Assembly (NCBI GenBank): GCA_002687735.1
Contig: NZBD01000004.1
Location: forward strand, 27,849 to 83,605
Direction of reading: 5' to 3'
Length of the DNA stretch: 55,757 bases
DNA from: Candidatus Iainarchaeum sp.
GTDB lineage: Archaea; Iainarchaeota; Iainarchaeia; Iainarchaeales; Iainarchaeaceae
Shown here: piece after piece, positions 16,077 to 51,655 of the stretch
Layout of the letters: each line of letters starts with the position of its first letter
Position numbering within the stretch: position 1 is the first letter of the stretch
Translations under genes and position numbers: made by a program
Notes under the pieces: model-generated
Seen by the model: only the letters and a program-made list of their open reading frames with translations
What the model was told of the DNA's origin: nothing
Databases searched by the model: none

Positions 16077-19000
16077 ATGGGTTCTAAAGGATTTTCAATT
16101 ATAGAACTGGTAATCGGGATTATTGCTGTTATAGCAGTTGTCGCAGTAGTTGCTACAATAGCAGATGTTCTTTTTAATTCTTCAGATTCTGGTGATGGGA
16201 CAGTTACCACTGAACCGCCTGTTATTGATTCTGATTCCGGAGCAGTTGTCGGAGAATTATGTTCCGATCAGCTTCACTTAATCGGAGATTCTCCCTGGCC
16301 AGCTGGTGATGGATGTAATACCTGCAGTTGTGGTTCTGATGGTTCGATTACTTGTACAAAAATTGCATGTGGGGGGTTTCCTGATTCAGACCCTTTACCA
16401 AAAGTAAAGTATAAGTGGAATTGGCAGGATATAGCTGCGGATTCTTGTGATGCTGATGTTTCTGATGCAATTTTTTGTGATTCAACCCAGTTTACAATTG
16501 CTTTGCTTAAAAGCATTAACGATTTCCAGAACACCGGGAGTGCAAAATCCCGTTCCTCATTTTCAGGTTTTGAGTTTGAAGCCAATTTAATGAAATCCGG
16601 TTTTTCTGATGACTTCAGAAAAGATTTTGATCAATATTATCAAAGCTCATTTTTTGCTGATCTTGGGACCCCGACTTTTTATAATAATTCAGATGGTTTA
16701 TGGCAGTACTTTTATGATTCTTCCAATGATGGCAGGTTTGTGTTTCAGAATAATGGTCAGCCCTGGACTTCAGGCATGAGCCTTGAACCAGGAGTTTATA
16801 CAGTTACTGTAACTATTCCCGGAACATTTAATCTTTCTTCCCCGCAAGATGATCCAATAGAGGTTAATTTTGAGTTTGTTTCTGCACCAGCCAGAGACAG
16901 TGTTTTGTATTATCTGCCTTTTAACGCTGAACTAGGTTTGCGTTCTGCTTCAGGTAAAATTGATCGTATTGGTTATGGTGTCGGATTCTCAGGAACTGAC
17001 ACTGAGGATATTCCGATTAATAGTCTTGTAAACTTTGATGTTTCAGAATTAAAGCTTAGCGATGGTATTGTAAGATTGTCCAAAGCAGAAACAAGAACAA
17101 GTTTGGTTGAACTCAATGATCCAATTAATCTTGTTAAGAGAGGGGAATTATTGAAAATTTCCAGAGGTACAAATAACAATTCTTATAATCTTAAGTTTTC
17201 TCCTTCAATCCCTAATCCTGTTTTGTTCAAAGTAACGAGACCTGAAGGTTCACCGGGAAGTTTTCCAATTTTTTACACGGTTTATGATGGTAGTAGTTTA
17301 TTTGAGTTTGAACCGCAGCCGCAATCATTTATCAATTGGACAACCACCTCTAATTCATGTCGTGACTTTACCGGGGTTCTATTAACTGCTTTGTATGGAG
17401 AAGGAGTATTTGATACTGTTGCAAACTCAACCCAAATTCCTGATGAATCAACCAGAAACAGCACTTTTGGTTTTTCCTGGAATAACGTTTCTGCTTTAGG
17501 AAATGTTACTTTAGAATCAGTAGTGTATGCGCATTCTTCTGATAGGTCTATTCAGGTTGATTTTTCAAATGATAATCCTCAGCCAACTGATCCTTTCGGA
17601 ACTTTTGTTTCAATTGGAGATTCAGGAATAGCAAGCGGTAACACGTTTAGTCTGAATGGTACTTATAATAAATTGCTTGACAACACAACCAAGTCTCTTG
17701 CTGATGTTTTTGCCTTGGTTGAAGCAGGCTATGTTAATGTTATAGAAACTGATGATTCAATAACCTTTGTCTGGAACCAAAATAAAATATTGGAGTTGGT
17801 TGATGCCTCCAGACAGGAACTTTTCAACGAATGTATTTTAGCTGTTGCTCAAGAAACTAATCCTCCGGCTGTTACTTTGACTGCTGTTCCTGTTAGTGGT
17901 GTTGTTCCTTTGGATGTGAAGTTTGAGGTTGCGTGTTCTGATGCTGAGGATGATGCTGATACTGTGAATGATTATCCTGCTCAGTTTTGCAGGATTGATT
18001 TTGGTGCACATGTTGAGGTTGTGGAGGGTAATTTGGCTGATGCTGACGAGGTCGGAGATTCTATCACTTGGTTTAGATTTCCTTGGCATATTAATAATGA
18101 TAAGTGGGTTACTGTGAGGTATAGTGAGCCTGGAACGTTTACTGCTAAGGGTACTGCAAAAGATAAGGATGGCAATGAAGTTGAAACAACTAAAACAATT
18201 ACAGTTACTCAGGAAAATATTCCTCCAACCAGCGGAAGGTTACTTTCATCTAGTGTATTTGTTGACACAATTGCTGATGGTTCAACAACCGGAATAGGAT
18301 ATGTTGAGGTTACAAAAGGTACAGATGTTATTGAATTGTATGACGGGCAGGTTTATCCTTTTGGTTCAGCATCAACCGGAGAACCAATACCTTACAAAGT
18401 TAAAATTGTTCCAGCGTCTAATAACCCTAATGCATTGTACGCTATTCAAGTTAAAGCTTTTGATGAAGAATGGATAGATTCGGAAGATGGGCTTCCTGAT
18501 TATGGTCCTTTAAGTGTAGGGGACACTGCTAACTTTTTACAAAGTTTATCTATCGGAACACTTGGAAAAGATTTTGTTAACATAGAATTCCTTGGTTTTA
18601 ATGGAAACGGTTCTCAAGAGGGGGATGATGTAGAAATTGTTGTTTATGGTCAGCAAGTCATTAGAGAAATCACGGGCGCAGAAATATTAACTCTAGAAAA
18701 TGGGGCATCAGGAATAACCGATAGCGGAGTTACAGTAAGTGTTCAATCAGTTTCCGGTGGAAGTTGTGTTGTGAATGGATCAGTTGCAACAATAGATTTG
18801 TCAGATTTAGAAGCTTATTTGTTAGTTAATGGCGATGAGTTTGTTAATAATTTGTTAGTTGGCGAAACCAGAATTACTGCTTCTGGAACCAGAGTAACTT
18901 TCGAATCTATTTCGGGAGGTTCTTGTGGGGTAGCTGGCGGTGGAATTGCTGTTCTTGATTTAAGTGATATTGAATTAGATATTACTATTGGCGGAGAATT

Positions 19001-22000
19001 AAATTTTGGAGCTGGTGCAAAAGTATATAGATCCGCACTTAATTCTAGTCCCGGAAGTGTAGAAGTTGGCGCTGGTTTAACTTCAAATAGTGCCCTAACA
19101 GATGCTCAATTACCTCATTTATTTAACAATGCAATTACTCAAAGAGTTAATCCAAATGCCACATCTCTTGTTACAAGAGAAAGGATTGGTGTTGAAGTTG
19201 ATGCTTTCCTTGAGGGCGGGGAGTTAATTGCTACAATTGACGGCGGAAACTTTTCGGGACTTGCTTATGAAACAACTCTTGGTTCTCCTGAAACAGGATT
19301 AGATTTAGGTACTACGCATTTTGTTGATGATTCAATTGACAATGTTACAATTATTTTATTTGGTGAACAATACAAATTAGCAGAAGCTAGGTTAACAGCA
19401 CCAAGGTATGTTAGATTAGTTAAAAGTTCATCTAGAGAAACATACAAGGTAGGAGAAACTATCCAAGGTTTAGTTGGTGCCGGTCTAATTGCGGGTCAAG
19501 ATGTTTCAATTAACGTAACCCAAGTTGAAGCAATAGATGAAACCGCAACAGAATTTGAGGCAACTTTTGAGTTGTTTTATACGCCTGCTGGTGATAATCG
19601 ATTAATTTTTGTTGAATCTCAAAAGGTTGGGTCAGGAGTTAATTTAAGAGATGTTTTTGGAATTGTTCCTCCAAATCAACGAATCAATTTACTTTCAAAC
19701 CCCGGCTTTGAGGAAGGTTCTTTAGGTACAGGGAACTCTAATGCTGGGTCTAACGGTGCAATAATTACTGATTGGGTTGGGGTTGATTGTCCTAATTGTG
19801 CCGGAGACTTTTTTTGGGATACTTCAGTAAAACATTCAGGGATTAATAGTGTAAAGCTAACAACTGATGGTTCTAAAAATTATAATATTGTTTTACAAGG
19901 AAATGATCCTTTAGCTCCTTTAGAACAAGGTGAAACTTATAAGTTAACTGGTTGGATGAAGTCAAATCTTTCCAGTGGACAATGTACAATGGATGTTGTT
20001 AAGTGGGATAATGGGGCTTTAGAATTAACTTCTGGTATTTCTGCATTGCGTCCAACTATTTCCGGAATTATGGGTTGGACTAATTATTCAATGGACTTCA
20101 CTATTCCTCAAGGAGTAACCCAAACTCAGTTTAGAGTTATTCAAAGACCTCGAGGTTCTGCAAACCCAGTGGGTGATTGTTGGTTCGATGACATGCGATT
20201 AGTTAAGGGTGTTCCAGAGGTAAGTGAAAAACTAATTACTTTTACTGTGTTTGATGCAAGTAATAACTTTACTCAATTAAGTGGAGTTACGGTAAGGATT
20301 CTTCAAGATAGTGTGTTGGTTATTGAGGGAACTACTGATTTGCAGGGAGAAGCTTTATTTGAATTAGAAATGGGGGAGTATGAATTTGTAGTTAGTAAAA
20401 GTGGTTATGATTCTCAAGGGGATTCTTTTACTGTTGCTAATTTATCTCATACTTTTGCAATAAGTCTAGTAGAGGTTTCAGGAGAAACATTAACTTTAGC
20501 TGTTGGCGAATCAGTTACAACCGATTCGGGAATTTCGGTTAGATTTGATGGTGTTGATAGTTATGTTTGCTCCACCTTTTCCTTTGCCTGCGTGGAAGAG
20601 CCTGTAGATGTAGTTGTTCGCTTAACAACTTCAATCGATTCTGATATTGAAGCGTTATTTATAGGTCTTAATGAAACTATAACAACTGATTCCGGAGTAA
20701 CTGTTTCATTTGATAGTTCTACTGCTGTTTGCGGTGGAGTTTTGGGTTTCCTGTGCGGTGTCAATCCTGCGGAAATGAGTATTGATGTTACTGTAAGTTC
20801 TGAAGCACTACCTGTATTTTGTGGTGATATTCCAGTTAGTTCCTGTGATGTTGCAGGTAATGTTGTGACCTGTGTAGGAGGCCAGTATGCTCGTGGCGAT
20901 GCGACTTTTAGTGAGGCAGAGGCATGTGTCAGCCAGTGGGATCAATCTAATCCTAGTGCTGCTGATCAGCAAAGAGTGACAGATCTATTAGCTTGTCTCC
21001 TTGATTATAATGCAGGCACTATTGACTTATTAGCTTTGCTTAGGTGTATATCTGTTTTCAATACTCCGCTTTGCGATTTGCCCGGTGATATTGATGGTGA
21101 TGGGGAAATAACTTGTGGTGATGTTAGTTTGATTGCTGAGAGGTGGCAGACTGGTGGTTATTATTCTTGTTTGGATTCAGACAATAGTGGTGTTCTTGGT
21201 ATTAATGAGGCTATTGGCGGAATTTCCAATTTGATTGATGAACATAATTTGGATTGTGGGGAGACCGCATCAGTTAATCTTCAAGAAGGCTGGAATCTTA
21301 TTTCAATTCCTGTTGTTGATGGTTTGAGTGTTTCTGATTTGCAAAGTAAATGTGATATTGCTAGTTCTATATGGGCTTGGGATGCTGCATATGGAAGATA
21401 TGAGCAAGAAGGAACAAAGCTTGAAGCAGGGAAAGGTTATTTTGTTAAAGCGAATGAAAGTTGCACTTTTATTATTTCTGGCACGCCTTTTTCCTTTGAA
21501 GGTTTTTCAATTCCACGTGGCTTAAGTTTGATTGGATCTACAACGGTATCTGTAAATGTTTCAGATATTTTAGGGACTTGTCCACTAGACACAGAATTTT
21601 ATTTATATGCTCCTCTTACTGATCCATTGAATTCAGCTTCAAGTGTTCCTACAGCTAAAAGCAGTACGGATGAGGTTTATATACAAACCACTACTTTAAG
21701 TCCAAGCAAAGGTTATTGGGTAAAAAACAATTCTGATGAAGCTTGCTCTTTAGCTGCAGGAGAATCGGCTTGCGATTTGCCCGGTGATATTGATGGTGAT
21801 GGTAGTGTAACTTGTGATGATTATGATTTGATTGAAGAGTTATGGAACAGCGAAGTTGACCCTGCTAGTTGTGTTGATTCTAATGATGATGGAGTAGTTA
21901 ATATTTTTGATTGGCTAGCATTCATTGATAATGTTCCTGCTGGTTTGGATTGTTCTGTGCCTCAAGTTTCTTGTTTAGATGGTCAAAGAATTGGTGATGT

Positions 22001-23828
22001 TGATAGGGATGGAAAAGTTAACATAACTGATTCATTACTTGCTTCGCATATTACTACGGGTCTTGTTGCGTCCCCTTCTAACATTTGCTGTGTTGATGTA
22101 ACTCAAGATGGCGTCATAAATCATGATGATGTGGACGAGATTGTGAATATTGCTGTTGGTAACGCAGAAAGCCCTGGAACATGCGACGAAGAAGTTGTTG
22201 TTTCAGGAGAAACATTAACTTTAGCTGTTGGCCAGACAGCTACAACTGATTCTGGAATTTCAGTTACGTTTGATAGTGTTGACAGTTATGTTTGTAGCAG
22301 TGCTGATTTTGCCTGTGTGGAAGAGCCTGTGGATGTAGTTGTCAACCTTACAATTGTTGATGATTCAGAGGCTGAAACAATAACTGTGAGTACTAATGCG
22401 ATTGCTGAGACTGATTCCGGAATAACTGTTGAAATTGATAATTACAGTGCTGTTTGCGGTGGAGTTTTGGGTTTCCTGTGTGGAGTCAATCCTGCGGAAA
22501 TGAGTATTGATATTACTGTCAGTTCTGAAGAACTTACTGTTTCAGTTTCTCCTCCGGGTAAGCCAACTTGGTTTGGTGTTGCTCCTGCTGAAAATATTGA
22601 TGGGGCTGTGAGGGTTACTTGGAATCCTGTTGTTGGTGCGGATTTTTATAATTTGTATAGGCATAATTCTGTTACTGGTGTGACTGAGTCTGAACCTTTT
22701 TTGGATGATTATGTTGGTACAGTTAGTGCGACTTATGGTACAATTTCTTATTTTGATCGAGATCTGAGTTCTGGTTCTTATTGTTATAGGGTTACTGCTG
22801 AGAATGCTGGTGGTGAATCTGGTGTTGCTACTAATACTGTTGGTGGTGCTGGCGATTGTGCTACGGTTGAGGGCGTTCCACAGGTAACTGCTCCAGGTTT
22901 TCCGTCTTGGTATGGTGCTGCTGCGGTTGATGCTGGTACTATTAGAATAACCTGGAATACTGACCGAGGAGGAGAAACTTTTAATTTATATAGAGTTAAT
23001 CCATCAACCGTTGTTGGGGAGATAGACCCTCAGAGGGATGAAATTTCTTCTTCACCATTTGTAACAGATCTTTTTGGTTCTGGTGACATTATTAATTATT
23101 TTGATGAAGGTTTAGCAGCAGGAACTTATTGTTATACTGTTACTGGGGTTAACTCGGGAGGAGAATCTGCCTTTGCTTTTAATACTCAAGATGGTTCGGG
23201 TCCTTGTGCTACTGTAGAGGGTGTTCCACAGGTAACTGCTCCTGGTTTTCCATCTTGGTATGGTGTTGCGCCTGCTGAAAATAGGGAGAATACTGTGAGA
23301 ATTACCTGGAATCCTGTTAGCAGTGCGGATTTTTATAATTTGTACAGGCATGATTCTGTTACTGGTGTGACTGAGTCTGAACCATTTTTGGATGATTATG
23401 TTGGTACAATTAGTGAAATTTATGGCACTATAACATATTTAGAGGAAAATCTAAGTGCTGGTACTTATTGTTACAGAGTAACTGCTGAGAATGCTGGTGG
23501 TGAGTCTGGTGTTGCTACTAATACTGTTGGCGGTGCTGGTGAGTGTGCAACCTTAGAATCAACAGAGCTTCCTGTTGCTCCAACAGAACTTTCAGCTGTT
23601 GCAAATAATAATGGGTTTATTGATCTTTCATGGATTGCTTCTGAAGGAGCAACAAGTTATGATATTTATGATGCGGGAAATAAAATAGGTTCATCTAGCA
23701 GTATCTCTTATGAGGACGACAGTCTCACAGATTATGTCGAACATTGTTATGAGGTAAAAGCAGTTAACTCAGCAGGTGCTTCTGCAAGTTTTTCAAATGA
23801 AGCTTGTGCAACACCATTAGAAGAGTAA
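16077..23828 (+). CDS. Giant (2583 aa) multidomain surface protein: type IV pilin-like N-terminus, VWC/pacifastin-like Cys motif, PKD-like, CBM-like, dockerin-like, GWNLISIP and Fn3 modules
   Basis: N-term MGSKGFSIIELVIGIIAVIAVVAVVATIA; CNTCSCGSDGSITCTKIAC; NPGFEEG...WFDDMRL; three GD(I/V)DxDG dockerin-like motifs; four Fn3-like repeats; single uninterrupted frame. Confidence 0.85.
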   Translation: MGSKGFSIIELVIGIIAVIAVVAVVATIADVLFNSSDSGDGTVTTEPPVIDSDSGAVVGELCSDQLHLIGDSPWPAGDGCNTCSCGSDGSITCTKIACGGFPDSDPLPKVKYKWNWQDIAADSCDADVSDAIFCDSTQFTIALLKSINDFQNTGSAKSRSSFSGFEFEANLMKSGFSDDFRKDFDQYYQSSFFADLGTPTFYNNSDGLWQYFYDSSNDGRFVFQNNGQPWTSGMSLEPGVYTVTVTIPGTFNLSSPQDDPIEVNFEFVSAPARDSVLYYLPFNAELGLRSASGKIDRIGYGVGFSGTDTEDIPINSLVNFDVSELKLSDGIVRLSKAETRTSLVELNDPINLVKRGELLKISRGTNNNSYNLKFSPSIPNPVLFKVTRPEGSPGSFPIFYTVYDGSSLFEFEPQPQSFINWTTTSNSCRDFTGVLLTALYGEGVFDTVANSTQIPDESTRNSTFGFSWNNVSALGNVTLESVVYAHSSDRSIQVDFSNDNPQPTDPFGTFVSIGDSGIASGNTFSLNGTYNKLLDNTTKSLADVFALVEAGYVNVIETDDSITFVWNQNKILELVDASRQELFNECILAVAQETNPPAVTLTAVPVSGVVPLDVKFEVACSDAEDDADTVNDYPAQFCRIDFGAHVEVVEGNLADADEVGDSITWFRFPWHINNDKWVTVRYSEPGTFTAKGTAKDKDGNEVETTKTITVTQENIPPTSGRLLSSSVFVDTIADGSTTGIGYVEVTKGTDVIELYDGQVYPFGSASTGEPIPYKVKIVPASNNPNALYAIQVKAFDEEWIDSEDGLPDYGPLSVGDTANFLQSLSIGTLGKDFVNIEFLGFNGNGSQEGDDVEIVVYGQQVIREITGAEILTLENGASGITDSGVTVSVQSVSGGSCVVNGSVATIDLSDLEAYLLVNGDEFVNNLLVGETRITASGTRVTFESISGGSCGVAGGGIAVLDLSDIELDITIGGELNFGAGAKVYRSALNSSPGSVEVGAGLTSNSALTDAQLPHLFNNAITQRVNPNATSLVTRERIGVEVDAFLEGGELIATIDGGNFSGLAYETTLGSPETGLDLGTTHFVDDSIDNVTIILFGEQYKLAEARLTAPRYVRLVKSSSRETYKVGETIQGLVGAGLIAGQDVSINVTQVEAIDETATEFEATFELFYTPAGDNRLIFVESQKVGSGVNLRDVFGIVPPNQRINLLSNPGFEEGSLGTGNSNAGSNGAIITDWVGVDCPNCAGDFFWDTSVKHSGINSVKLTTDGSKNYNIVLQGNDPLAPLEQGETYKLTGWMKSNLSSGQCTMDVVKWDNGALELTSGISALRPTISGIMGWTNYSMDFTIPQGVTQTQFRVIQRPRGSANPVGDCWFDDMRLVKGVPEVSEKLITFTVFDASNNFTQLSGVTVRILQDSVLVIEGTTDLQGEALFELEMGEYEFVVSKSGYDSQGDSFTVANLSHTFAISLVEVSGETLTLAVGESVTTDSGISVRFDGVDSYVCSTFSFACVEEPVDVVVRLTTSIDSDIEALFIGLNETITTDSGVTVSFDSSTAVCGGVLGFLCGVNPAEMSIDVTVSSEALPVFCGDIPVSSCDVAGNVVTCVGGQYARGDATFSEAEACVSQWDQSNPSAADQQRVTDLLACLLDYNAGTIDLLALLRCISVFNTPLCDLPGDIDGDGEITCGDVSLIAERWQTGGYYSCLDSDNSGVLGINEAIGGISNLIDEHNLDCGETASVNLQEGWNLISIPVVDGLSVSDLQSKCDIASSIWAWDAAYGRYEQEGTKLEAGKGYFVKANESCTFIISGTPFSFEGFSIPRGLSLIGSTTVSVNVSDILGTCPLDTEFYLYAPLTDPLNSASSVPTAKSSTDEVYIQTTTLSPSKGYWVKNNSDEACSLAAGESACDLPGDIDGDGSVTCDDYDLIEELWNSEVDPASCVDSNDDGVVNIFDWLAFIDNVPAGLDCSVPQVSCLDGQRIGDVDRDGKVNITDSLLASHITTGLVASPSNICCVDVTQDGVINHDDVDEIVNIAVGNAESPGTCDEEVVVSGETLTLAVGQTATTDSGISVTFDSVDSYVCSSADFACVEEPVDVVVNLTIVDDSEAETITVSTNAIAETDSGITVEIDNYSAVCGGVLGFLCGVNPAEMSIDITVSSEELTVSVSPPGKPTWFGVAPAENIDGAVRVTWNPVVGADFYNLYRHNSVTGVTESEPFLDDYVGTVSATYGTISYFDRDLSSGSYCYRVTAENAGGESGVATNTVGGAGDCATVEGVPQVTAPGFPSWYGAAAVDAGTIRITWNTDRGGETFNLYRVNPSTVVGEIDPQRDEISSSPFVTDLFGSGDIINYFDEGLAAGTYCYTVTGVNSGGESAFAFNTQDGSGPCATVEGVPQVTAPGFPSWYGVAPAENRENTVRITWNPVSSADFYNLYRHDSVTGVTESEPFLDDYVGTISEIYGTITYLEENLSAGTYCYRVTAENAGGESGVATNTVGGAGECATLESTELPVAPTELSAVANNNGFIDLSWIASEGATSYDIYDAGNKIGSSSSISYEDDSLTDYVEHCYEVKAVNSAGASASFSNEACATPLEE

Positions 23829-47250: not shown

Positions 47251-48756
47251 TTATTGGAAAGCGATGAAAACTACTCTTGGGGTGTAATTCCTTGTATAAG
47301 TGTAATCTAATGTGTTTCCTTGAAGAGTTATATATATCGTAGTTTCTTGACTTCCATAGTCTCCTGTAAATGCCACATCCGTATCTCCCTGAAATGCAAC
47401 CCATGAAGAATCTGCATCCCCCCATCCCGAACTAATTATCAAAACAAAAGCAGGATCGAAATCAAAAGTTACCGTTCCACTTGTTGGATCCACCGCAATA
47501 TCCACAAATTTAATTTGTCTTGAACCTCCACCTGGTCCACTACTTGTTAGACATGAGGGTGTTCCCCCGAATGCATTAGCACATATATTTCCTTCTACGT
47601 CTAGGTCTCCTGTGCTTCCTGTTAATTGCATGCTTAATGTTTCTGCTCCGTCTGCGCCTTTATAGAATTCTATGTTGCTAGTATCTGATCCTCCTCTTAT
47701 TAGAAATTTTGTTGACTGATTCCCCAAAGCATCTCCTGTTGTTAATTCCAAAGTATTACCCAAACCAACTTTTCCCTGTGTTATTCCCACATCATATCCT
47801 CCTGCTCCTGCGTTTAATGCTAATATTCCTGACGGTGCATTTGTTGCTCCTATTGCTAGTGGTCCTCCAAGGGTTGTTGTTCCGGTAAATCCTGAAGCAT
47901 CTGAGTTTTCATCCAATACTTCTAATAATGTTGATGATCCTGTGCCTCCAACAACCGATAATGGGTTTAAAGTAGTACCATCGCCTGTCAAATTAGCATC
48001 AGATTGTACTGTTTGTGTTCCCCAGTTATCTGCACTTCCACTCCCTGTTGGCCAGCTTGATATGCAATTTAGGTTGAGGCATAGTTTGACTCCGGAGGGT
48101 ATTTCTACTTTGCGTGCGCCTGTTCCACCATCATGTAAGATTAGTTCTGGTTCTCCTACGGTGGTATCGCCTTCATGGTAGGCGTTAAGTATGCCGGTGG
48201 AGTCTCCGCTGGTGGTGTTGTGTGCGGAGCTTAAGAGTAAGCTGGCGTCTCCGTTGCTTCCGCCGGGTCTTCTGACTGATAGTCCATATGGGGTTGAAGA
48301 TGTTCTTAATTCTAAAAAACCGTTAGCGCTGTTTATTTGTACTCCGTCTGTGTCACTTAGCTTTAGTGGGCCTGATGTTCCTGATCTTATTTGGTTTGGT
48401 ACTACTAGGTCTCCATAGATGTTTACTGAACCTGTGCTTGTGATGAGTTCTGGGACAAGCCTTCCTAAGTGTAATTGTTTGTTATTTCCGTTTATTCCGA
48501 TTATGTTATTGTTGTTTAATTCGAATGGTGCTACTGAGCCTGCTTCCATATAGTTAGCTCCGTCTGCTGGGCTCATTATCCAGAACCATCCTGTTGCATC
48601 TCCGGTTGTGTATAATCTTACGCCTCTTGAATCACTTAGATCGTGTCCTGGGTCTTGTTGTCCGACAGCTGCTCCTGGTCCGCCAGGGCCAGAGATAGCA
48701 ATTCCGACTAAGCTTACAAATATAACAGTTATTACTAAAAGTTTTGAGAAATTCAT
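47251..48756 (-). CDS. Secreted protein with tail-fibre/beta-helix-like repeats
   Basis: Signal peptide MNFSKLLVITVIFVSLVGIAISG; DNWGTQTVQSDANLTGDGTTLNPLSVVGGTG typical of fibre-like proteins; Gly/Ser/Thr-rich, aromatic C-terminal domain. Confidence 0.7.
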   Translation of the reverse strand: MNFSKLLVITVIFVSLVGIAISGPGGPGAAVGQQDPGHDLSDSRGVRLYTTGDATGWFWIMSPADGANYMEAGSVAPFELNNNNIIGINGNNKQLHLGRLVPELITSTGSVNIYGDLVVPNQIRSGTSGPLKLSDTDGVQINSANGFLELRTSSTPYGLSVRRPGGSNGDASLLLSSAHNTTSGDSTGILNAYHEGDTTVGEPELILHDGGTGARKVEIPSGVKLCLNLNCISSWPTGSGSADNWGTQTVQSDANLTGDGTTLNPLSVVGGTGSSTLLEVLDENSDASGFTGTTTLGGPLAIGATNAPSGILALNAGAGGYDVGITQGKVGLGNTLELTTGDALGNQSTKFLIRGGSDTSNIEFYKGADGAETLSMQLTGSTGDLDVEGNICANAFGGTPSCLTSSGPGGGSRQIKFVDIAVDPTSGTVTFDFDPAFVLIISSGWGDADSSWVAFQGDTDVAFTGDYGSQETTIYITLQGNTLDYTYTRNYTPRVVFIAFQ

Positions 48757-48814: not shown

Positions 48815-50650
48815 TTATTCCCGAGAAACAAGAATTAGTCCTACTAAAAGAACAAGCAAAATTAGCCCTAACAGCAAACCATTCTCACTTAGGAATGAAA
48901 ATCCTGTTGCTAAAAAACCGTTATTTTCTTCTGTTTGTTCACGTTCGTTTTCTATTGGAATATAAATTTCAGTAACTTGAGGAGCTATTGGTTGAGAAGC
49001 AACCTGAATAACATTAGTATACTTTTGTAAGTATTCTCTATCATCAGCTTTAACATCAAAGAAGATTGTTCCTTCTTCATCCAGACCATTAATTGTTACA
49101 ATTCTTGTGCTTAATGTTTTTGGGCTTAGGGTAAATTCTTTTGGAGAAACTAAAACATCATTAGAATAAACTTTTACTGTGATAACTTCATTGCTCGGGT
49201 TATCAACCTCAAATGTAACAAAGCCTGCTTTTCCTTTAACCTCAATCTCTGCAGGATTGTAAAGCTTAACCTGATCAATTCCTGGTTCATTATCTAATCC
49301 ATTAACTCTCACATAAAAAGTATCTGATGCTAATACGCAATTCAAGCCTGAATTAAAGTGGCCATTAATTGTAACATAAGCGCTCCCTGTACTGTCTTCC
49401 TCAGGATCAGAACCATGAGCCCTTACTTTTATTGCGGTTGTCTGTCCTGAATAAACAGTGCTTAGCTCTCTATAAGCTTCGATTCCAAAGTCAGGGCTGT
49501 AATCAACAGCTTCAATATTATCTATGTGGAAGTTTTCTGTTGAGTAATTTCTGAAAGTAAAATAAGCTGTTTTATCATAATTAGCATTAACAACAAAGTT
49601 TTCTTCTCCTATTGAAAGAGAGCTACAGTTAGCTGCTGGAATTTGAGGTTCTGCGTAATAAGTTAAAATTGTTTCTGGAAGTTCCTCTTGAACCGGTTCA
49701 GGTTCAACTTCTACCCATTCCTGTTGGGTTTCTCTAGCAACATTAAAAGAAGTACTTCCCTGAGTATTGCAATAAGGTCCGTTTTCATAAATACAATTAT
49801 CCTCTGGTTCGGGTTGAGCAAAACCATTTACATTAACATAAAAATCTCTTTCCAAATCGCTTCCTGAACATCTAACCCCGTCTCTGAAAGTCCCTATAAC
49901 ATTAATAGTGCCCCTTCTTGCTTGGCTTGTAACATAAGGTTCAACTCCCAAATCAAACTCGATTCTTTCAGTTGAATTACTTCTCACAACCCCATCATGT
50001 TCAATGTTTGAAACATCTATATCAAAGCCATCAACATAAATGTACGCATTCTCCAAATCCATGTCCATTGAAGAATAATTGTTTATGTAAAAGATCACAC
50101 TTCTTTCAGTTCCGGGATTAATGCGAACATTGCTCACACTCAAACTAGCTTCTCTACAATCTGTTCTAACTGTCGGGTGATAATTTTGTCCTGTTAGAAC
50201 TGCTGAGTTTGTGGGATAATTTCCGGTTTCTGCATAATAAGTATCGTAAACCGTTGGGGGGTAATAATAAGCTCCGTAATAACTTGGTGCGTAAGAATCA
50301 ATCCAGCCAGGGGAATAATTCCAATAATTGTTGTAGTAGTAATAATTGGGGCCGTAATAAGAGTAATAGTTTGCGTAAGGGTTTCTTGAAAAACCATCAT
50401 CAAAAGTGTACCATCCTGGTTCAAAGTAATGGTAGTTTCCGTAAGAGTAAACTCTGTAAGGATAATCAAAATAATACCAGTTATCGGAAGTGTATGAGTA
50501 AGGGGCATCAGAATAATAGTAGTTTCCGCCGCTGGAAACCTCAAAATAAAAATTATCCCCGTAATAACTCAAAAAGAAGCTTGCACTCGCTACGCTCGCT
50601 GAACTAATAAAGAACAGTAATGCTATTGCAAGTAATCCCCAAGTTTTCAT
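48815..50650 (-). CDS. Surface protein: signal peptide, Tyr-rich N-terminal domain, two related beta-sandwich-like repeats, C-terminal TM anchor
   Basis: NYYSYYGPNYYYYNNYWNYSPGWIDSYAPSYYGAYYYPP; C-terminus ENGLLLGLILLVLLVGLILVSRE. Confidence 0.75.
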   Translation of the reverse strand: MKTWGLLAIALLFFISSASVASASFFLSYYGDNFYFEVSSGGNYYYSDAPYSYTSDNWYYFDYPYRVYSYGNYHYFEPGWYTFDDGFSRNPYANYYSYYGPNYYYYNNYWNYSPGWIDSYAPSYYGAYYYPPTVYDTYYAETGNYPTNSAVLTGQNYHPTVRTDCREASLSVSNVRINPGTERSVIFYINNYSSMDMDLENAYIYVDGFDIDVSNIEHDGVVRSNSTERIEFDLGVEPYVTSQARRGTINVIGTFRDGVRCSGSDLERDFYVNVNGFAQPEPEDNCIYENGPYCNTQGSTSFNVARETQQEWVEVEPEPVQEELPETILTYYAEPQIPAANCSSLSIGEENFVVNANYDKTAYFTFRNYSTENFHIDNIEAVDYSPDFGIEAYRELSTVYSGQTTAIKVRAHGSDPEEDSTGSAYVTINGHFNSGLNCVLASDTFYVRVNGLDNEPGIDQVKLYNPAEIEVKGKAGFVTFEVDNPSNEVITVKVYSNDVLVSPKEFTLSPKTLSTRIVTINGLDEEGTIFFDVKADDREYLQKYTNVIQVASQPIAPQVTEIYIPIENEREQTEENNGFLATGFSFLSENGLLLGLILLVLLVGLILVSRE

Positions 50651-50661
50651 ATTTTCAACTC

Positions 50662-51030
50662 TTAGTTAATCCATGAAGGATAATTGTTGTATCTGCTGTT
50701 GTAATTATACCCGTTATTACTCGAGTAGTAATAATAGTCAGGGTAATAATCGTTGTAGTAATTGTATCCGTAGGAGTTCCCGTAATAGTTAGGGTAATAG
50801 TTGTATCCGTAATAATCTGGAGCGTATGACCAATAACTATCAGGGTAATATGAATTGTAGTAACTGTCGTACTGGTATGGTGCTACGTAGTAGTCCACAT
50901 AATAATCGTAATAATTTCCTGCCACAATAGTGTAGTGGTTTCTGTAAGCCCCATCATACACGTATGGGTAATATGCGCTTGCTTGTGCTGCAAAAATAAT
51001 CATTAATCCAAGAATCAACCATTGTTTCAA
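50662..51030 (-). CDS. Secreted extremely tyrosine-rich protein (122 aa)
   Basis: Signal MKQWLILGLMIIFAAQASA followed by YYPYVYDGAYRNHYTIVAGNYYDYYVDYYVAPYQYDSYYNSYYPDSYWSYAPDYYGYNYYPNYYGN...; 41 Tyr counted in about 103 mature residues. Confidence 0.75.
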   Translation of the reverse strand: MKQWLILGLMIIFAAQASAYYPYVYDGAYRNHYTIVAGNYYDYYVDYYVAPYQYDSYYNSYYPDSYWSYAPDYYGYNYYPNYYGNSYGYNYYNDYYPDYYYYSSNNGYNYNSRYNNYPSWIN

Positions 51031-51184
51031 ATTATATTCCCCCAGCTCTCAGAGCCTATACCTATTGCTGCTGAACCAATATATAAACCTTTTCCTTTGT
51101 TCACGGGATTAAGTTATTTATAAAGGTTGTTTTGTCTCAGCAAGCTTAATAAAGCGCATAGCACTTATTTTTTAGTGATACAAA

Positions 51185-51655
51185 ATGTCACCTAAGCCTA
51201 CATCCAAATACCGAAGAGGAGATTCTTCCAGTTCAGGCAGGAAATCTCCAGGGTCTGAAAATCGCAGGTATAAAAGAGAAGGTATTGGTGAGGTTCAGGG
51301 TACTCGTAATTCTGGACGTGGTATTTTAACTCATATGCCTAACCCTCCTAGGATGAGTAGTGGCAAAGCAAGTGTGTTTGATGGTGTCTGGAAGCAAATA
51401 ACTACAATTAACCCTGATCTAGAAAAAAGGGCTGGAAAGGAACAAAAGTTTTATGGTAGCTTAGCTAATCCTAAGGGGATTAAATATTTAGAATTCCGCA
51501 GGGATTATTGGAGAAGGCATCTTACACGATTAAGAGGATATGCAAGAAGAAAAGCAGGAAAAGTAAGGCAGGGTGATGCTAGCTTAAAAGAAGAGCTTGA
51601 AGACAGAATTGCCAAAATAACTTCCTATCTTAAATATGCACGATCTAAGCAATAA
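51185..51655 (+). CDS. Basic protein of unknown function
   Basis: 156 aa ORF with TATA-like TTTATAAAGG upstream; Arg/Lys-rich, no family recognised. Confidence 0.6.
   Translation: MSPKPTSKYRRGDSSSSGRKSPGSENRRYKREGIGEVQGTRNSGRGILTHMPNPPRMSSGKASVFDGVWKQITTINPDLEKRAGKEQKFYGSLANPKGIKYLEFRRDYWRRHLTRLRGYARRKAGKVRQGDASLKEELEDRIAKITSYLKYARSKQ

Follow-up and report, generated by a model that had tools for sequence, protein, structure and literature searches.

Two adjacent genes of a Candidatus Iainarchaeum genome encode the exported proteins P0001 and P0002, of which the first is 40% tyrosine in its mature chain and the second is anchored in the membrane and carries a tyrosine-rich head of its own. 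We rate the pair as a putative surface coat or adhesin of extreme composition. Specifically, our leading proposal, held at slightly less than even confidence, is that P0001 and P0002 are the two components of a coat or adhesive on the surface of Iainarchaeales (Diapherotrites) cells.

P0001 is a conserved, secreted, tyrosine-rich protein

The P0001 gene lies on the minus strand of the window (the whole 55.7-kb stretch of DNA analysed) and runs from a TTG start at 51030 to 50662. The initial annotation had described a secreted tyrosine-rich protein at this site and named no strand; both the reading frame and the secreted, tyrosine-rich character of its product were borne out. The gene and its upstream signals are as follows.

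50662..51030 (including the stop codon), minus strand: P0001, secreted tyrosine-rich protein of 122 aa, TTG start, kept in the sister species (G002:C76)
50974..51030, minus strand: P0001 signal peptide of 19 aa, MKQWLILGLMIIFAAQASA, read from the sequence; helix 4-19 in the AF2 model
50665..50973, minus strand: P0001 mature chain of 103 aa with 41 Tyr (40%) by composition count; AF2 pLDDT 46
51038..51043, minus strand: ribosome-binding site GGGGGA, retained in the sister species
51079..51087, minus strand: TATA box of the operon (TTTATATAT), from the sequence and the comparison with G002
51100..51116, minus strand: 17-bp dyad element TAACTTAATCCCGTGAA of the type TNAC-N8-GTKAA, just upstream of BRE/TATA and conserved at the locus across the order

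Cleavage falls between MKQWLILGLMIIFAAQASA and YYPY, the signal peptide ending in AQASA. Besides the 41 Tyr, the mature chain contains 15 Asn, 9 Ser, 8 Asp, 7 Pro, 6 Gly, 2 Arg and 2 Trp. Lys, Leu and Glu, of which the initial annotation had noted almost none, are absent altogether, as are Cys, Phe and Met. The tyrosine codons (26 TAC and 15 TAT) are mixed in irregular order, and P0001 is thus not a DNA microsatellite or short DNA repeat. Nor is its tyrosine density a matter of chance, because six-frame translation of the window revealed only two tyrosine-dense frames, P0001 (up to 19 Tyr per 40 aa) and P0002 (17 per 40), which share one operon. A scan of the source genome (552 kb, 63% complete) with TAYTAYNNNTAYTAY likewise matched these two tyrosine-rich proteins only.

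No match to P0001 was found in Pfam, NCBIfam or PDB sequence searches, and as judged by its sequence it belongs to no known family. A viral origin was considered and rejected, as there were no relatives in IMG/VR. AF2 run on the single P0001 sequence predicted no fold (pLDDT 46) and hence a disordered chain, although such a prediction for one low-complexity sequence is weak evidence in either direction. The predicted disorder of P0001 on its own is what would be expected of a low-complexity assembling chain.

The initial annotation had made the standing of the gene depend on its conservation in sister strains, and it is indeed conserved in the sister species G002, whose copy covers the first 49 codons up to a contig end. 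Over these codons the identity is 90%; 12 codons differ synonymously and 5 nonsynonymously (dN 0.053, dS 0.60, dN/dS about 0.09). Four of the five amino-acid changes fall in the signal peptide, and 29 of the 30 shared mature residues are identical. G002 also keeps the TTG start codon, the GGGGGA ribosome-binding site, the TATA box and the signal peptide, and the ~40 bp upstream of the gene are identical or nearly so. The excess of dS over dN across the 49 codons shows that P0001 is a real gene under purifying selection. In G001, the third member of the genus, contigs break on both sides of the P0001 site, which makes this genome uninformative on presence. Short-read contigs often end in or near the tyrosine-rich genes (G001:C8/C159, G002:C76, G006:C3, G007:C102/C61); in G007, where the contig end is probably chimeric, radical-SAM-like sequence continues the P0002 frame.

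P0001 leads an operon with its own promoter

P0002 starts 11 nt past the P0001 stop codon, which leaves no space for a second promoter, so that the two genes form one transcription unit. Upstream of P0001, the dyad is kept at this locus from family f1 to family f18, and it also precedes the homologous gene in other families whose product has no tyrosine-rich head. Since the promoter is conserved at the locus even in these headless families, P0001 sits between an ancestral promoter and P0002, as the leader of the operon. The initial annotation was right about the tyrosine-rich gene, but it missed P0002, with its own tyrosine-rich head, and that P0001 leads their common operon.

Within the window, the site at 51100-51116 was the only one that scored highly with a position weight matrix (PWM) and was then followed by a TATA box. 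A PWM trained without the complete Diapherotrites genome AR10 placed the AR10 locus site at the top of a 400-kb AR10 sample, with a score of 20.0 against 12.4 for the next TATA-linked site; this sample was used instead of whole genomes, over which a long degenerate promoter pattern missed even known sites. The P0001-P0002 operon is thus predicted to be driven by a locus-specific promoter made up of the dyad and a TATA box, and the dyad points to a dedicated regulator. In AR10, a second target may exist at a weaker TATA-linked dyad site (L178:16154, TTAACCGAGTAAAGTTAA).

Two further frames adjoin the pair. A divergent small basic ORF of 156 aa (51185-51655, plus strand), with an apparent counterpart in G002 (L019:301-669), shares the intergenic region with the tyrosine-rich operon. 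On the other side, between P0002 and rpl3, lies the gene of a secreted, fibre-like protein of 501 aa (47251-48756, minus strand; beginning MNFSKLLVITVIFVSLVGIAISGPGGPG), which could be a further member of this surface operon.

P0002 carries a conserved tyrosine-rich head on a predicted Ig-like stalk

P0002 consists, in order, of a signal peptide, a tyrosine-rich head, three Ig-like domains and a C-terminal TM helix.

48815..50650, minus strand: P0002, membrane-anchored, 611 aa; orthologues found
50171..50581, minus strand: tyrosine-rich N-terminal head, residues 24-160, conserved by position in 12 genomes; low-confidence short strands (AF2)
49820..50158, minus strand: Ig-like domain 1, residues 165-277; AF2, Foldseek (ASH/HYDIN-type), Pfam Cep192/HYDIN in family members
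49301..49630, minus strand: Ig-like domain 2, residues 341-450; AF2, Foldseek, Pfam in family members
49001..49267, minus strand: Ig-like domain 3, residues 462-550; AF2, Foldseek
48821..48913, minus strand: C-terminal TM anchor, residues 580-610; AF2 helices 580-589 and 591-610, hydrophobic sequence

The Ig-like domains were modelled by AF2 with a pLDDT mostly of 70-90, and the head with a pLDDT of 22-51 and short strands placed at 53-112. From this order of parts, the tyrosine-rich head is predicted to be membrane-distal and the TM helix proximal. Tyrosine makes up 28% of the head, and 24-32% across the P0002 family.

P0002 was present in seven of the eight genomes of its GTDB family, with the head seen in six; in the eighth, G002, the contig ends before P0002. 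Comparison with seven orthologues confirmed the signal peptide, tandem Ig-like domains with a conserved Cys/FRDG motif and the C-terminal TM helix as shared features. The named relatives, eight in all, are Diapherotrites and include the complete genome AR10 (CP010424); they came from an alignment-based contig scan, a single-protein query having given none. Across the phylum, a tyrosine-rich head with conserved positions was found in 12 of the 87 Iainarchaeota genomes (that of the window among them), which belong to six families of a single order. Ten residues (P50, Y51, Y59, R66, G79, W80, Y98, W110, P114 and Y128) are invariant in ten heads, and heads of different families are 31-53% identical. 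Because residues are conserved by position, the head is more than a biased composition.

The Ig-TM part is far more widespread, being found in 69 of the 75 genomes of the order by an order-wide profile search. Its gene usually lies between rtcB and rpl3, and in many families a P0002 homologue without the tyrosine-rich head occupies the place ahead of rpl3, often directly behind rtcB. In family f3 (L101, L103, L104 and L111), the Ig-TM protein has a different, moderately tyrosine-rich N-terminal domain (9-11 Tyr per 40 aa), perhaps an alternative head. AR10 also contains two adjacent giant frames of ~1700 and ~2800 aa with local tyrosine-rich stretches (12 per 40 aa; L177, G043:C1:660001-680000), possibly further surface proteins. 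In the window, a 2583-aa protein (16077-23828, plus strand) combines an N-terminus, MGSKGFSIIELVIGIIAVIAVVAVV, reminiscent of type IV prepilin signals with a giant ectodomain of many domains that includes dockerin-like GDIDGDG repeats.

A short tyrosine-rich gene recurs upstream of P0002 in a second family

Both sampled species of family f18 have a short secreted tyrosine-rich gene at the same operon position, separated by 14 and 16 nt from the P0002 homologue downstream. These ORFs (150 and 174 aa; 30% and 31% Tyr in the mature chains) are homologous to each other, with a shuffle z of 12.8. P0001 aligned to them with z of 0.8 and 1.9 over composition-matched shuffles. Against the P0002-head profile it scored 41.6 bits, with a shuffle median of 44.5 and 317 of 500 shuffles scoring as high. 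The idea that P0001 is a duplicated or detached P0002 head, suggested by the likeness of SYAPDYYGYNYYP to SYAPSYYGAYYYP, was therefore rejected; as the scores are no better than those of shuffles, neither shared ancestry nor like-with-like pairing of P0001 and the head can be claimed on the strength of alignment.

In eight head-bearing genomes (G003, G004, G005, G007, G043, G058, G062 and G067) no short tyrosine-rich gene precedes P0002; G006, whose contig starts too close to P0002, was left out of this count. P0001 is thus missing from most P0002-bearing genomes, where the head must work without it, and within f1 its presence at the locus is limited to the genus. In an EF-1alpha tree with weak deep resolution, the carriers of short genes from f1 and f18 stand apart. 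This means that the arrangement either arose twice or is old and was often lost; the tree is too weakly resolved to separate single from multiple origins of the tyrosine-rich head.

A proposed two-component coat and its alternatives

How might the two proteins work? In the model that we favour, P0001 and P0002 would be made from one mRNA under the locus-specific promoter and both exported by their signal peptides, as read from the sequence. The C-terminal helix of P0002 would keep the protein in the membrane, and its three ASH/HYDIN-type Ig domains would, from sequence and fold prediction, serve as a stalk that lifts the tyrosine-rich head off the cell. P0001 lacks an anchor and nearly matches the head in composition; it would be released from the cell and then retained there through multivalent aromatic stacking, tyrosine hydrogen bonding and backbone contacts at the surface, its partners being the P0002 heads and P0001 itself. 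The product may be a dense tyrosine-rich outer layer or glue, serving attachment to a host cell, to neighbours or to minerals, or forming an amphipathic envelope.

We infer that P0001 and P0002 assemble. We count in support of the coat the 11-nt gap, the single promoter and the like arrangement in two f18 species; that the only tyrosine-rich proteins found in the genome share an operon; the conservation of head positions across six families; the distal head; the purifying selection on P0001 and its predicted disorder; and that no peroxidase or Cu-oxidase was found in the genomes searched. Against it count the alignment of P0001 with the head, which stays at the level of shuffles, and the many P0002-bearing genomes without the short gene. 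Of the earlier suggestion of an adhesive or amyloid-like extracellular material, the extracellular part is upheld, and an adhesive or self-assembling coat is still the best reading. A bolder version, which we regard as possible but doubtful, is a non-covalent, tyrosine-driven polymer in which a released 40%-Tyr subunit is templated on tyrosine-rich heads borne by Ig stalks. It would be a new class of archaeal envelope material, one that originated, with a promoter of its own, within the operon encoding a surface protein found throughout the order, and possibly did so twice (f1 and f18).

The positional conservation of the head also suits a different view, which we consider unlikely though worth serious attention: the head is a folded aromatic ligand-binding domain, a glycan or host-surface receptor functionally like choline- or glucan-binding YG repeats, and P0001 forms no polymer but accompanies it as a soluble protein, for example a shedding decoy, a spacer or a co-receptor. 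Specific positions are kept beyond composition across families at 31-53% identity, and Tyr spacings of 7-8 residues, summed over ten heads, exceed those of shuffles (z 3.4-4.4), which suggests a repeating strand pattern. The short AF2 strands at 53-112 agree with this, and motifs such as GNYxYFxPGWY resemble YG-type repeats by eye. However, the head matched no binding repeat in Pfam, NCBIfam or PDB, its pLDDT is 22-51, and P0001 gives no head-profile signal.

In an improbable scenario, the tyrosine-rich layer is one side of a contact with a particular archaeal host, and the pair is the attachment adhesin of an ectosymbiont. All cultivated DPANN archaea require host contact, according to one account (PMC11291902). 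The membrane-distal head would suit such a role, and the lineage-specific gain of a short protein fits host adaptation. Counting against it, we know of no host for this Diapherotrites lineage. Moreover, the capacity for an independent life has been inferred for at least one Diapherotrites member (PMC6349945).

Cross-linking of the chains by dityrosine, which the initial annotation had put forward, lost ground. The comparison here is with the coccidian oocyst wall, whose secreted proteins GAM56 and GAM82 have tyrosine-rich low-complexity stretches, are proteolytically processed and form a protective layer; the Eimeria tyrosine-rich wall proteins are believed to be dityrosine-linked (PMC2726925). 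GAM56 and GAM82 resemble P0001 and P0002 in secretion and in these stretches, as functional analogues only; they differ in being eukaryotic and processed and have no known homology to the archaeal pair, and no cross-linking enzymes were found in the archaeal genomes searched. Haem peroxidase (PF00141) and multicopper oxidase (PF07732) were not found in eight carrier or sister genomes, several of them incomplete, in searches whose controls worked, which argues against enzymatic dityrosine; the controls of the tyrosinase search (PF00264) were silent, so that it bears neither way. An oxidant of another kind or from a host is conceivable and the tyrosine content is very high, but we judge an enzymatically or oxidatively cross-linked wall distinctly improbable. 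The favoured coat would not need covalent dityrosine bonds, and we do not favour them.

A pi-stacked conductive filament, also raised initially, has high aromatic density in its favour and is highly improbable: neither protein has a pilin-type (class III) signal, the P0001 signal peptide being of the signal-peptidase-I type (AQASA before YY, with no hydrophobic helix after), P0002 has a C-terminal helix that ties it to the membrane, and no sign of a filament or electron-transfer partner was found. Finally, that P0001 is a non-functional low-complexity by-product of the neighbouring tyrosine-rich gene, as its genus-limited presence at the locus in f1 and a likeness to its neighbour demonstrable only in composition might suggest, is scarcely credible given the dN/dS of about 0.09, the conserved start, ribosome-binding site, TATA box and signal peptide, and the like arrangement in f18 with clearly homologous short genes (z 12.8).

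Discussion

Small secreted proteins beside a surface-attached partner are familiar from curli, a functional amyloid whose small secreted subunit is encoded with such a partner gene. P0001 and P0002 share this layout with curli, but P0001 lacks imperfect amyloid repeats, Tyr replaces the Gln/Asn/Gly pattern, and no nucleator or export genes were noticed. Among prokaryotic coat proteins, the Gly/His/Tyr-rich YeeK type of the Bacillus subtilis spore is a small tyrosine-rich protein of the outer coat; P0001 is similarly small and tyrosine-rich but has no His enrichment, comes from another kind of organism and would be anchored differently, homology having been searched for in Pfam, NCBIfam and PDB.

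P0002 resembles archaeal S-layer and tandem-Ig surface glycoproteins in its signal peptide, Ig stalk, C-terminal TM helix and expected surface location, and differs in the distal head of its family (24-32% Tyr) and its 40%-Tyr partner; neither protein matched an S-layer model in Pfam or NCBIfam. Its stalk recalls the ASH/HYDIN/Cep192-SPD2 Ig domains (PF22073, PF22544, PF22067 and PF15780), to which P0002-family members gave weak matches (best E 1.4e-5) and whose PDB structures match the AF2 model by Foldseek. Here, however, the domains would form the extracellular stalk of an anchored archaeal protein, and P0002 of the window passes no curated cut-off.

Literature searches yielded no description of tyrosine-rich surface proteins in DPANN or other archaea, and as far as could be found the cell surface of Diapherotrites is undescribed. 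The aromatic, sticky outer coat that the pair is proposed to build would be unlike any archaeal surface layer described. With a conserved protein beside the ribosomal operon and a conserved promoter, the locus supplies a specific candidate for one of the main components of the envelope; in some lineages this protein has a soluble partner of extreme composition. Should the two proteins indeed assemble, they would amount to a minimal tyrosine material that is genetically encoded in Archaea. It could then be used to study the assembly of aromatic low-complexity chains where cross-linking enzymes are lacking, and the way in which DPANN cells attach.
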